A stretch of DNA of 64,000 nucleotides from Sinorhizobium sp. 8-89 (GTDB lineage: Bacteria > Pseudomonadota > Alphaproteobacteria > Rhizobiales > Rhizobiaceae): NCBI RefSeq assembly GCF_030124325.1, contig NZ_JASKLR010000001.1:292427-356426 (forward strand). Reading direction: 5' to 3'. The notes beneath the pieces were generated by a model. The model was not told where the DNA came from. It searched no databases and saw only the letters and a program-made list of their open reading frames with translations. Numbering within the stretch: the stretch's first letter is position 1; each line of letters opens with the position of its first letter. Shown here piece by piece: positions 3,800 to 50,347 of the stretch. The position numbers and the translations under genes were made by a program.

Positions 3800-4573
3800 A
3801 TGCCATGGAACGCGCGAATGCAAGATACGATGACGGCCGGGATGACTGACACCGATCTGCCCCGGGGCGGTGATTTCGCGTCTGAAATCGCAAAGCTTGA
3901 GACCCAGTTCGATATCATCCGCTACATGCGGCGGGTCACGCAGATCTTTGGCTTCAAGGCATTCCTCATCTGCTCGATTCCGGCGATCGAAGTGGAGAGA
4001 CTGGCGGCGACCACCGTTATCTCCAACATGCCGGCCGAGCTCCTCAGCAAGTACGACAGCCTGTCAATGCTGCGTTTCAGCACCGGGGTACGTCGACTGA
4101 GGGAGACGACGACGCCGTTCCAGATCATGCTCGACGACTGGGAGAAGGAGGGTGGCAAGCCGGCCACGGCCGCGGATTACATCGCCATGCTGCGCGAAAA
4201 CGGCATCTTCCAGGCAAATTATTTCCCGGTTCACGACGCCGAGGGCGGACGGGGCGCGGTGATCCTCATGGGTCCGGAAGCCGATTTGCCGATGACGGCC
4301 GCCATGGAATTGCAGATGATCGCGATCCACGTCTACAACCGGTTGGCGGAGATCGGTTCCGTATGGAAGAGCACCAACACCGCGCTGTCCGAGCGGGAAA
4401 TCCAGTGCCTGAGCTGGACGGCGGCTGGCAAGACCAGCGCCGAAATCGCCGGGATCCTCGGTCTCTCCGAGCACACGGTCAATCACTACCTCAATCACGT
4501 CACCAAGAAGCTCGACGCCGTAAACCGCACGCAAGCGGTCGTGAAGGCGATGAAGAAGGGCTACATCAGCTGA
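3800..4573 (+). CDS. Orphan LuxR-type regulator, autoinducer-binding-like domain plus HTH (copy 2)
   Basis: A 257-aa paralogue of the preceding gene with the same layout: a sensor half (about 25-185) and a LuxR helix-turn-helix (about 192-255; LSEREIQCLSWTAAGKT and SEHTVNHYLNHVTKKL). The pair probably arose by tandem duplication. The AHL-contact positions are even less conserved: Leu replaces the first Trp, Ser replaces the Asp, and the following Pro is absent. The start is uncertain, since in-frame ATGs at 3800, 3818, 3830 and 3842 are all possible. In S. meliloti I recall two adjacent orphan LuxR genes at the equivalent place; their signal is not known to me. Confidence 0.78.
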   Translation: MPWNARMQDTMTAGMTDTDLPRGGDFASEIAKLETQFDIIRYMRRVTQIFGFKAFLICSIPAIEVERLAATTVISNMPAELLSKYDSLSMLRFSTGVRRLRETTTPFQIMLDDWEKEGGKPATAADYIAMLRENGIFQANYFPVHDAEGGRGAVILMGPEADLPMTAAMELQMIAIHVYNRLAEIGSVWKSTNTALSEREIQCLSWTAAGKTSAEIAGILGLSEHTVNHYLNHVTKKLDAVNRTQAVVKAMKKGYIS

Positions 4574-4660: not shown

Positions 4661-4705
4661 CGCACCTTCTGTACGCAAATAGTACGTTTGCCCAGAAATA
4701 GTGCA
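4661..4705 (+). promoter_or_regulatory. Two NtrC-like upstream activator sites
   Basis: TGC-N11-GCA lies at 4689-4705. Read on the other strand it is TGCACTATTTCTGGGCA, very close to the NtrC site I recall upstream of E. coli glnA. A second, weaker dyad, CGC-N11-GCA, lies at 4661-4677. Their centres are about 113 and 141 bases upstream of the start predicted from the sigma-54 promoter at 4784-4799, close to the classical spacing for NtrC activator sites at glnA. Confidence 0.6.
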
Positions 4706-4783
4706 GCCATCTTCATCGGCAACGTTAATGCGCGGCGGCTTCATCATCTTGAAATTAATGAATATTCCAGAATGGTCTGAGTC

Positions 4784-4799
4784 TGGCACGCCTTGTGCA
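4784..4799 (+). promoter_or_regulatory. Sigma-54 (RpoN) promoter
   Basis: The sequence TGGCACGCCTTGTGCA has the invariant GG (4785-4786) and GC (4797-4798) separated by exactly 10 bases and a perfect TGGCACG -24 block. The -12 block is GTGC instead of TTGC. The predicted transcription start is near 4810. It faces a gene-free stretch that ends in an intrinsic terminator, not a long open reading frame. Confidence 0.65.
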
Positions 4800-4809
4800 T
4801 ATGCATTGT

Positions 4810-4929
4810 CGTGTCCAGAGGGGACCACAATAAGACAGCGCCCAAGAAGGTTGCGAGGGCAGGGCCGCCGCCGATCGTTCGTGATCCCGGATGTACGGAC
4901 ACAACGATCGGCTGGCGGCCCTGTTTTTT
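4810..4929 (+). ncRNA. Candidate NtrC/sigma-54-dependent small RNA (about 120 nt)
   Basis: The region runs from the predicted sigma-54 start to a strong terminator and has no plausible coding frame. A small 5' hairpin is possible at about 4811-4829 (GTGTCC, loop AGAG, then GGGACCAC). A mostly single-stranded stretch follows, then a 19-bp stem with one bulged A (arms 4861-4879 and 4903-4922) and six T residues at 4924-4929. This architecture is typical of trans-acting bacterial sRNAs. Nitrogen control is inferred from the upstream NtrC-like sites. N-responsive rhizobial sRNAs such as mmgR are known; I cannot tell whether this is the same RNA. Confidence 0.55.
4861..4929 (+). terminator. Intrinsic terminator of the candidate small RNA
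   Basis: The arm AGGGCCGCCGCCGATCGTT (4861-4879) pairs with 4903-4922, with a single bulged A, across a 23-base loop that can itself fold. It is followed by G and six T on the plus strand. It would also separate the sigma-54 transcript from mrp downstream. Confidence 0.8.
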
Positions 4930-4973
4930 CCTATCTGTCGCATTGGCGAACCGCTCCGCCTCAATTATCACTG

Positions 4974-5120
4974 CATAATTCCTTAAATCGGGTCTGATTT
5001 GAGGATAAATTATCCACTGCATGTTTCCTTAAATCGTAGGCGATTTAAGGATAAAAACATGCAGCAATTCAAAGTGCTACAGCGTCCTTTGCGCGTCTGA
5101 AGAGGCGCGCGGCGCTGTAG
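4974..5120 (+). repeat. RIME1-type palindromic mosaic element, copy 1
   Basis: Two linked hairpins form the element. The first is an AT-rich palindrome from TGCATG (5018) to CATGCA (5063), with CCTTAAATCG facing CGATTTAAGG. The second, at 5077-5120, starts CTACAGCGTCC and ends GGCGCTGTAG. A decayed third copy of the AT-rich hairpin lies just before it (4974-5013). The same module recurs at 34771-34873 and, inverted, at 42977-43079. This is the pattern of the rhizobial intergenic mosaic elements. Confidence 0.8.
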
Positions 5121-5199
5121 TGGTTCAAAGCGTTACCGCCTGCGATCGTCCGAAAGGCGCCAGGCGCGGTGGCACGAACAGACAGATGAAGAGGGCGAT

Positions 5200-6357
5200 A
5201 TGCCGGACGTAACCAGGGAAACGGTTCTTGAAAAGCTGCGCAGCGTGCGCGGTCCGGATATGGAAGGCAATATCGTTGACCTCGGTCTCGTTTCCGATGT
5301 CTTCATTTCCGACGGCAAGGCTTATTTTTCGATCACGGTGCCGGCCGACCGGGCGAAGGAGCTTGAGCCGATGCGTGCGGCAGCGGAAAGGGTCGTGCGC
5401 GAAATACCCGGCGTCAAGGCGGCGATGGTCGCGCTGACGGCCGACCGCAGGGCGGCACCGCAGGCGGCGCCGGTGGAAAGACCGCGGCAGGTTCCGCCCA
5501 CGACACACGGGCACGCTCAGCGTCCGACCGGCGGCTCTCCGGCAAAGGCAGGTATCCCGGGCGTCGGCGCCATCATCGCGGTTGCCTCCGGCAAGGGTGG
5601 TGTCGGCAAATCGACGACATCGGTGAACCTTGCGCTCGCGCTGCAGGCGAACGGTCTTAAGGTCGGTCTGCTTGACGCCGATATTTACGGACCCTCCATG
5701 CCGCGCCTCTTGAAAATCAGCGGCCGGCCGCAACAGATCGAAGGGCGGCTTATTCGCCCCATGGAGAACTACGGGCTTAGGGTCATGTCGATGGGATTCC
5801 TCGTCGATGAGGAGGTCGCCATGATCTGGCGCGGTCCGATGATCCAGTCGGCTCTGCTGCAGATGCTACGCGAGGTGGCCTGGGGCGATCTCGACGTTCT
5901 CGTCGTGGACATGCCGCCGGGCACGGGCGATGCCCAACTGACGATGGCTCAGCAGGTGCCGCTGGCCGGCGCCGTCATCGTCTCGACGCCGCAGGATCTC
6001 GCGCTCGTCGATGCACGCAAAGGTCTTGCGATGTTCCGGAAGGTGGAAGTCCCTGTTCTCGGCATTGTCGAGAACATGAGCTATTTCGTGGCACCCGATA
6101 CCGGCAAACGCTACGATATCTTCGGTCACGGCGGCGCACGCAAGGAAGCCGAGCGCATCGGGGTGCCGTTCCTCGGCGAGGTGCCTTTGACCATGGGCAT
6201 TCGCGAAACCTCCGATGCGGGAACTCCGTTGGTGGTTTCGGAACCCGGCGGTGAGGTCGCGCGTATCTACCGGGATATCGCAGCGAAGGTTTGGGAGCAG
6301 GTCTCCGCGGCTCGCCAGAACAAGAGCAGGGCGATGCCCGATATCGTCTTCGAATAG
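5200..6357 (+). CDS. mrp: Mrp/ApbC-type P-loop ATPase, iron-sulfur carrier family
   Basis: A 385-aa protein with an N-terminal MIP18/DUF59 domain (about 1-85), a Pro/Ala-rich linker, and a Mrp/NBP35 ATPase domain with the deviant Walker A GKGGVGKST at 131-139 and DMPPGTGD at 238-245. The family carries and transfers 4Fe-4S clusters in the cytoplasm. Here the CxxC that normally holds the bridging cluster is replaced: the equivalent segment reads ENMSYFVAPDTGKRYDIFG (291-309), and I find no cysteine in the whole protein. GAAGAGGGCGAT precedes the ATG. The gene stands alone. Confidence 0.9.
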   Translation: MPDVTRETVLEKLRSVRGPDMEGNIVDLGLVSDVFISDGKAYFSITVPADRAKELEPMRAAAERVVREIPGVKAAMVALTADRRAAPQAAPVERPRQVPPTTHGHAQRPTGGSPAKAGIPGVGAIIAVASGKGGVGKSTTSVNLALALQANGLKVGLLDADIYGPSMPRLLKISGRPQQIEGRLIRPMENYGLRVMSMGFLVDEEVAMIWRGPMIQSALLQMLREVAWGDLDVLVVDMPPGTGDAQLTMAQQVPLAGAVIVSTPQDLALVDARKGLAMFRKVEVPVLGIVENMSYFVAPDTGKRYDIFGHGGARKEAERIGVPFLGEVPLTMGIRETSDAGTPLVVSEPGGEVARIYRDIAAKVWEQVSAARQNKSRAMPDIVFE

Positions 6358-49767: not shown

Positions 49768-50053
49768 TGCGGAATGCTAACCTTTCAGGGTTAACAGATG
49801 ATTTTTCAACGCATTCGTCGATGGCGTTCGCGCGGGACGAATGTCGCAAAATGGCCAGTCCGCTTCGTGCCGGAGATGACGCTGCCGAAAAAATCGCCAG
49901 TTGCTTAAATTTTCTGCTATCGCATTGTTTATAATGGACAATGTTTATGGATGATTCGCAGTTGAACACGAGAATGTCGTGTCGCCTTTCCGGAACAGGA
50001 TGTCGTCAATCGGCAGATGCGGAACCGCTGCGCGCGCTTAGATATGAACACTC
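49768..50053. other. Region upstream of the cobalamin riboswitch
   Basis: About 285 bases between the start of the 49132 gene and the riboswitch. A TTGTTTATAATGG block near 49927 contains a perfect TATAAT and may be the -10 of the gbcAB transcript; no matching -35 at normal spacing was recognised. No gene is supported here. Confidence 0.35.
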
Positions 50054-50226
50054 AAGGTGCCGCTCCAGGGAGGGCGGAGAATTGGGAAGCCGGTCAGATC
50101 CCGGCGCTGCCCCCGCAACGGTGGTGGAGCGAAAGCCACGGCAAAAAGCCACTGGACGGTGCGTCCGGGAAGGCGCCGGGCGGGTCCCTCCAGGGGCCGC
50201 TCCAGAGCCCGGAAACCAGCCTTGGG
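50054..50226 (+). promoter_or_regulatory. Cobalamin (B12) riboswitch leading the gbcAB genes
   Basis: The plus strand shows the conserved blocks in order: AAGGTGCC (50054), GGGAAGCCGGT (50084-50094), the B12 box GCGCTGCCCCCGCAAC (50104-50119), AAGCCACTGG (50146-50155), CCGGGAAGGCG (50165-50175) and a closing AGCCCGGAAACCAGCC (50206-50221). These are the diagnostic parts of the cobalamin aptamer, correctly spaced. It ends about 120 bases before the Rieske oxygenase start. Hairpins between 50281 and 50306 (GCGCCGGTATCTTTATCGGT) may be part of the expression platform. Usual action is repression when cobalamin is abundant. Confidence 0.88.
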
Positions 50227-50347
50227 GATGAAAAATCGACCGTAACTGGTTGCGGCGGGCAGCCGGATCGGAGCCGTTGATGCGCCGGTATCTTTATCGG
50301 TGCCGGTTCCTGTCCTGCCTCTCCGAACTGATGAACGAGGATAGGAC

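Follow-up and report, generated by a model that had tools for sequence, protein, structure and literature searches.

The 626-bp gap between a LuxR-type regulator gene and mrp in Sinorhizobium sp. 8-89 holds a predicted small RNA (sRNA) gene on the + strand, which raises the question of what this RNA is and what it would do. The gap was analysed as part of a 64,000-nt stretch of DNA (the window). An earlier note on this DNA, made from the sequence alone, had described the gap, given there as 625 bp, as the site of a nitrogen-limitation sRNA without a credible ORF. NrsZ of Pseudomonas is an NtrC/sigma-54 sRNA, and the RNA studied here would be like it in that type; no sequence relation is claimed. 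Domain matches identify the neighbouring genes as those of an IclR regulator, two LuxR-type regulators, Mrp and CorA. The features are listed in Table 1.

Table 1. Position of the predicted sRNA, its parts and the flanking features in the window
Feature	Position	Strand	Remarks
LuxR-type regulator gene	3800-4573	+	PF03472, PF00196; NurR by annotation in S. meliloti Ak57
Distal NtrC-like dyad, CGC-N11-GCA	4661-4677		centre -141 from predicted +1; not kept in the 30-locus alignment
Proximal NtrC-type site, TGC-N11-GCA	4689-4705		centre -113 from predicted +1; conserved
Sigma-54 -24/-12 promoter TGGCACGCCTTGTGCA	4784-4799	+	GG-N10-GC spacing; predicted +1 at 4810
Predicted sRNA, about 120 nt (SmelC165 homologue)	4810-4929	+	start from promoter, end from T6
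5' hairpin H1, GUCC-AGAGG-GGAC	4813-4825	+	fold; pattern search with sigma-54 site and core
UCCAGAGGGGA, AbcR complement within H1	4814-4824	+	exact complement of UCCCCUCUGGA; sole exact copy in the window
Small hairpin H2	4838-4854	+	consensus structure; related to nas-leader hairpin
Terminator hairpin (4860-4923) and T6 (4924-4929)	4860-4929	+	fold, compensatory changes
Conserved TCCCGGATGTACGGA in terminator loop	4885-4899	+	apical loop
Likely mrp promoter, TTGGCG-N17-TATCAC	4943-4971	+	sigma-70-like, 3' of terminator
mrp, Fe-S carrier P-loop ATPase	5200-6357	+	PF10609, PF01883

Promoter, terminator and range of the RNA

The sigma-54 promoter TGGCACG-N3-TGTGCA of the earlier note is present where it had been placed, and in an alignment of 30 Sinorhizobium loci its GG-N10-GC spacing is kept in all 30 and TGGCACG in 28. 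Taken singly, the motifs are weak. The window has one TGGCACG-N5-TGC, with 0.2 expected; genome-wide this pattern is at chance level, with 40 matches to 36 for its reverse. For TGC-N11-GCA, 25 copies in the window compare with an expectation of 28.8. It is their conservation that raises the locus above chance. Both predicted NtrC-like dyads exist in the sequence. The proximal one is conserved, having decayed in one clade; the distal one is not. Of the elements that the earlier note expected to persist in close relatives, the promoter, the proximal site and the terminator are kept. Among the 90 related loci having 200 nt of upstream sequence, 56 carry TGC-N11-GCA at -180 to -40 of the sigma-54 box, compared to a shuffle mean of 9.7 (largest value 15 in 50 rounds); because the loci are related, these counts and those from the alignment are not independent. 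The locus thus combines a conserved -24/-12 element with an upstream NtrC-type site, as expected of an NtrC/sigma-54-dependent sRNA, by its proximal site only.

The predicted RNA folds with -64 kcal/mol (z -5.6), and none of 200 shuffled sequences folded as well. It ends in the hairpin and six T that the earlier note had seen about 120 nt downstream. RNAalifold gave 28 pairs, seven of them with a compensatory change, and all seven lie within the terminator hairpin. Covariation in the H1 stem is slight (four G-C to A-T changes among 90 RNAs), the stem varying too little for this hairpin to be established in that way. Short ORFs overlap the predicted sRNA; none is conserved, the variable linker lengths and a 2-nt insertion in relatives breaking all frames. 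A peptide gene was rejected on this ground, in keeping with the earlier note. Searching the locus against Rfam with E up to 5 returned sub-threshold matches only, to BASRCI27 in a downstream repeat, to ar35 in the terminator, and to microRNA and other models. The repeat (4975-5130) is palindromic and intergenic, lies between terminator and mrp, and scores 32.8 bits with BASRCI27 (gathering threshold 59.8). Similar sequence is found in some relatives and is absent from one locus (L002). The window's only gathering-level Rfam match is a cobalamin riboswitch at 50038-50238 on the + strand (109 bits).

To determine the range of the RNA, we searched 60 genomes and found homologues in 33: the genome studied, where the region matches once, 31 of 32 congeneric genomes besides, and a single further genome of the family. 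The single miss within the genus is an 85%-complete assembly. Conservation at this level, together with that of the sigma-54 promoter, bears out the view of the locus as a small RNA gene. LuxR precedes it in 29 of 30 Sinorhizobium loci, the exception being interrupted by a contig end. The core pattern was present on 26 named contigs, 25 from Ensifer/Sinorhizobium and one from an unclassified Rhizobiales isolate. A covariance model built from the 30 sRNAs matched 102 of 394 genomes of the GTDB family; at most eight candidates were scored per genome, so weak second copies could be missed. Outside the genus, all 25 matches of at least 57 bits lie before mrp, and LuxR is upstream in a smaller share than in Sinorhizobium. 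Of the 17 weaker matches examined, five stand alone by other genes and 12 precede nitrate-transport-type genes as leaders, mostly downstream of nasS. A search pattern combining the sigma-54 site with the H1 core was found in 103 of the 394 Rhizobiaceae genomes, in single copy in all but one, compared to 1/394 for the reversed control; at least four of the 103 (G097, G152, G182 and G200) look like chance matches without the stem. In the order's other families it matched one of 284 genomes, again without the stem. The 30 pattern-search loci examined comprise 13 linked to mrp, seven just after nasS, eight other stand-alone loci and two chance matches before protein starts. In one of the 13 (L166, genome G341) the H1-type RNA is flanked by a NasS-like gene (48% identity) and mrp, which makes it a possible link between the nas-leader and the mrp-linked forms.

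The constant neighbourhood might suggest that the RNA is the 5' leader and attenuator of mrp, which lies downstream on the same strand in 30/30 oriented Sinorhizobium loci and in the 25/25 higher-scoring loci of other genera. However, mrp appears to have a promoter of its own. Downstream of the terminator, 49 of 55 mrp-linked loci have the sigma-70-like sequence TTG[GA]CG-N17-YATYT; the locus in the window deviates from it at the last base tested and is among the six misses. These promoters support the earlier proposal that the terminator insulates mrp. Moreover, stand-alone members occur at other genes (5/17 of the weaker loci and 8/30 of the pattern-search loci), and we regard the leader explanation as very unlikely.

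Relation to SmelC165 and MmgR

By position, strand and sequence features, the locus is very probably the homologue of SmelC165, an already published S. meliloti sRNA, and not a new gene. The accessible part of one review places SmelC165 at 910182-910297 (+) of S. meliloti 1021, in one copy and with an RpoN motif (PMC7143759), and available passages of another describe its family (RFMSmelC165) as ranging over the Rhizobiaceae, with complete microsynteny and an atypical hairpin with poly-U (PMC3927594). In S. meliloti Ak57 the homologue lies between nurR (LuxR) and mrp (record CP090106), its predicted start falling about 651,960 bp past the SRP RNA, versus 650,255 bp from the published 1021 coordinates, on the same strand. 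Position thus agrees to about 1.7 kb as judged through collinearity with Ak57, and for this reason we call the identity very probable. The length in Ak57 is 118 nt, both ends being predictions, against 116 nt published. The locus and SmelC165 therefore have in common their position, strand, length class, RpoN motif, occurrence in one copy, poly-U hairpin and a range over the Rhizobiaceae with conserved neighbours. In the loci studied here, mrp comes after the sRNA in all 30 Sinorhizobium and 25 other cases. Where the openly accessible literature names SmelC165 it states no function, and its available passages give no NtrC site, AbcR link or nas-leader kinship. The 3.7-Mb S. meliloti record CP090106.1 is labelled plasmid pSymB and carries dnaK, polA and infB; since these are chromosomal genes, it is probably a mislabelled chromosome.

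The earlier note had left open whether the RNA equals MmgR, and it does not. MmgR (ar8) is likewise an sRNA of Sinorhizobium, has an RpoN motif and is reported to be activated by NtrC, but it is another gene, of another Rfam family (RF00519). No RF00519 match was found at the locus, and the genome's own mmgR lies elsewhere (L229). In S. meliloti 1021, MmgR is SmelC689, at a different place according to the part of PMC7143759 available.

Kinship to nitrate-assimilation leaders

The genome's own nitrate-assimilation (nas) leader scores 29 bits with the sRNA covariance model. A sigma-54 promoter, the 5' hairpin GUCC-AGAGG-GGAC and an H2-like hairpin are common to the sRNA and some of the nas leaders, and in some genera H1 begins the nas leader. 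Regulation of nas in S. meliloti has been described as not known (PMC6616083). In the genome studied, the nasT-nasS-leader-nrtA locus (positions 1-2700 of L138) has a sigma-54 site TGGCACGGATCCTGC followed by two canonical ANTAR hexaloop hairpins, the second overlapping the terminator. Such a leader was found in nine of 21 nas loci, this one included, using a regular expression that itself demands A1/G4; the other 12 gave none.

This kinship raised the possibility that the sRNA acts as a decoy for the ANTAR antiterminator NasT, as Rli55/EutX are decoys for EutV. The genome encodes one NasT, and all 33 genomes with a covariance match of at least 57 bits have an ANTAR protein, as judged by comparing two tables by eye. 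ANTAR targets require A1 and G4 in both hexaloops (PMC3369931). In the sRNA, however, the H2 loop carries C or a five-base loop in place of A1/G4, and the arm of the second hairpin is absent from most of the 30 aligned RNAs. Lacking the A1/G4 loops and the second hairpin, the sRNA is a poor candidate for a decoy, and we set this reading aside as highly improbable. The sRNA thus resembles a NasT-responsive nas leader in promoter, related hairpins and terminator, and in some genera also in H1, but differs in having no canonical A1/G4 hexaloop pair and, in Sinorhizobium, no nas genes after it.

Complementarity to AbcR and proposed function

A search of the genome with Rfam models revealed three ar15 (AbcR), one mmgR and five ar14 (NfeR1-type) sRNAs, and the match to AbcR was found on checking these nine sRNAs of three families. 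H1 contains UCCAGAGGGGA, which is exactly complementary to the UCCCCUCUGGA present in each of the three AbcR copies. This 11-mer is the longest exact complement to each of the three, compared to 6 nt for MmgR and one NfeR1-type RNA; 4 of 500 mononucleotide-shuffled sRNAs also reach an 11-nt complement. It overlaps seven of the eight bases of aSD2, UUCCCCUC, plus four more. In the accessible passages of PMC8844928, aSD2 is a genetically shown independent seed within an ultraconserved stretch. The ar15 consensus leaves the aSD2 bases unpaired in a near-invariant stretch, with the UGGA part opening the next stem.

We examined conservation on both sides of the predicted duplex. On the AbcR side, the 11-mer target is present in both Ak57 copies, both K101 copies and eight of ten plasmid-borne AbcR-like copies from several genera, drawn from 12 of 374 plasmid records with AbcR-like matches. 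The two exceptions have one substitution and one missing base, respectively. On the sRNA side, loci selected by homology have the exact 11-mer in 23 of 30 Sinorhizobium and 25 of 25 other-genus cases. The remaining seven Sinorhizobium loci carry a 2-nt insertion, UCC-AC-AGAGGGGA, which leaves 8+3 pairs and -16.2 kcal/mol. In a set of 92 RNAs, 78 have the exact 11-mer, seven the insertion and seven neither; because the search pattern itself forced CCAGAGGG or the 2-nt insertion, the 11-mer could vary in this set at its outer bases T, G and A alone. The seven with neither comprise three chance-like RNAs (L169, L180 and L219) and four variants (L131, L135, L136 and L221). Across the 78 exact RNAs, identity is 0.96 at the stem pair next to the 11-mer and falls to about 0.4-0.8 beyond it. 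At the sequence level, an exact complement covering the seed is thus conserved in both partners, and the two conserved blocks, H1 of the sRNA and the aSD2 region of AbcR, match over their length.

The near-invariance of the H1 stem, with its slight covariation, and the resemblance of GAGGGG to a Shine-Dalgarno sequence would also fit a DNA operator or ribosome-binding site just past the start in place of an RNA seed. That reading is highly improbable: the asymmetric centre belongs to the invariant part, the insertion and variable linkers leave no conserved start codon or frame, and the conserved block extends just as far as the AbcR complement. Owing to the same resemblance, part of a match to an anti-Shine-Dalgarno seed is expected.

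The 11-mer helix with AbcR has a predicted energy of -21.6 kcal/mol, or a net -9.4 to -10.1 kcal/mol after opening both RNAs. The 11-mer lies partly within the H1 stem, whose opening costs 5.7 kcal/mol. Net energies in S. meliloti are similar (-9.5 and -10.0 kcal/mol), and only 3, 2 and 0 of 60 shuffled sRNAs matched the net energies with the respective AbcR RNAs. Controls gave -2.4 kcal/mol for the NfeR1-type RNA and -0.1 kcal/mol for MmgR, and with their 6-nt complements a sponge of either was rejected. A cruder test of duplex formation, also compared with shuffles, gave mixed results (3, 8 and 161 of 200). Thermodynamics alone is insufficient for the claim of AbcR pairing, which is carried by the matching conservation. 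A CsrA-titrating RNA was also considered and rejected, the genome having no PF02599 match (3 of 14 matched in a control search).

The sRNA itself is already known as SmelC165; what is new here is the AbcR complementarity of its 5' hairpin. This complementarity suggests a function, for which the earlier note had made no proposal. We propose that SmelC165 is probably an NtrC-induced sponge that frees nitrogen-uptake mRNAs from AbcR, the promoter logic and the pairing being computed and the sponging inferred. Under nitrogen limitation, NtrC bound near -113 would activate sigma-54 RNA polymerase, as the conserved sites suggest, to yield the terminated RNA of about 120 nt. H1 is predicted to present AGAGG, and all 11 bases of the complement could pair with the aSD2 region that AbcR1 and AbcR2 expose. 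If H1 opens and binds AbcR inside the cell, AbcR would be drawn off its targets, which are chiefly mRNAs of ABC transporters and of metabolism (livK, prbA and aapQ among them), and uptake of nitrogen-rich compounds would be de-repressed when nitrogen is short. According to the available passages of PMC8844928, AbcR1/2 bind the mRNAs from about 6% of the protein genes in S. meliloti and silence amino-acid and other transport mRNAs, aapQ via aSD2, with livK and prbA among the targets; AbcR sponges are named there as a plausible open possibility. In accessible passages of PMC8829014, nitrogen limitation induces livK, whereas adding phosphate stress, a condition that induces abcR1, represses it. 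Among the titles and passages of the openly accessible literature, with most subscription papers outside this scope, we found no report of an AbcR sponge. CrfA of Caulobacter, a sponge of the ar8 sRNAs SisA-D in the part of PMC12559287 available, is likewise a starvation RNA with a seed-covering complement to a sibling sRNA family. It differs in being carbon-induced, proven and directed at ar8, whereas the SmelC165 locus has an NtrC-type promoter and encodes a putative sponge of ar15 (AbcR).

In other genera, a nas leader starting with H1 would also sponge AbcR. We tentatively extend the sponge proposal to the family, while thinking it somewhat less likely to be right than wrong at that breadth: the Rhizobiaceae may have one NtrC/sigma-54-driven AbcR sponge per genome, the H1-bearing nas leader serving as both ANTAR attenuator and trans sponge, and the stand-alone mrp-linked RNA having split off from it, with NasT control lost and the sponge kept. 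If true, the NtrC sponge would give the nitrogen-stress regulator a direct link to nutrient uptake at the post-transcriptional level, and an orphan sRNA would become a testable circuit, predicted for roughly one in four of the 394 Rhizobiaceae genomes sampled. Kinship with the nas leader suggests a route from leader RNA to sRNA.

Alternatively, AbcR could be the regulator, destabilising the sRNA and the H1-bearing nas leaders, or the sRNA could act mainly on mRNAs via H2 or the apical loop. In favour are the position of H1 at the start of nas leaders, themselves mRNAs (7/30 loci), and the strong conservation of H2 and the apical loop within Sinorhizobium. The stand-alone RNA, however, offers AbcR no conserved frame to control, and across genera H1 is the invariant part and the remaining parts of the RNA vary. 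We consider this pair of explanations unlikely and favour the sponge.

The apical-loop sequence TCCCGGATGNACGGA was found in 75 of 394 genomes of the family, some matches lying inside genes, compared to 1/394 for the reversed control. A search for a partner of this loop in 12 loci containing the sRNAs and the nas leader gave none. The sequence is part of the mrp-linked sRNA and recurs in some nas leaders and in sRNAs located after urtE. In three Ensifer-type sRNAs (L103, L187 and L095) the terminator loop is enlarged and carries a second, partial copy of the apical GATCCCGGAT motif.
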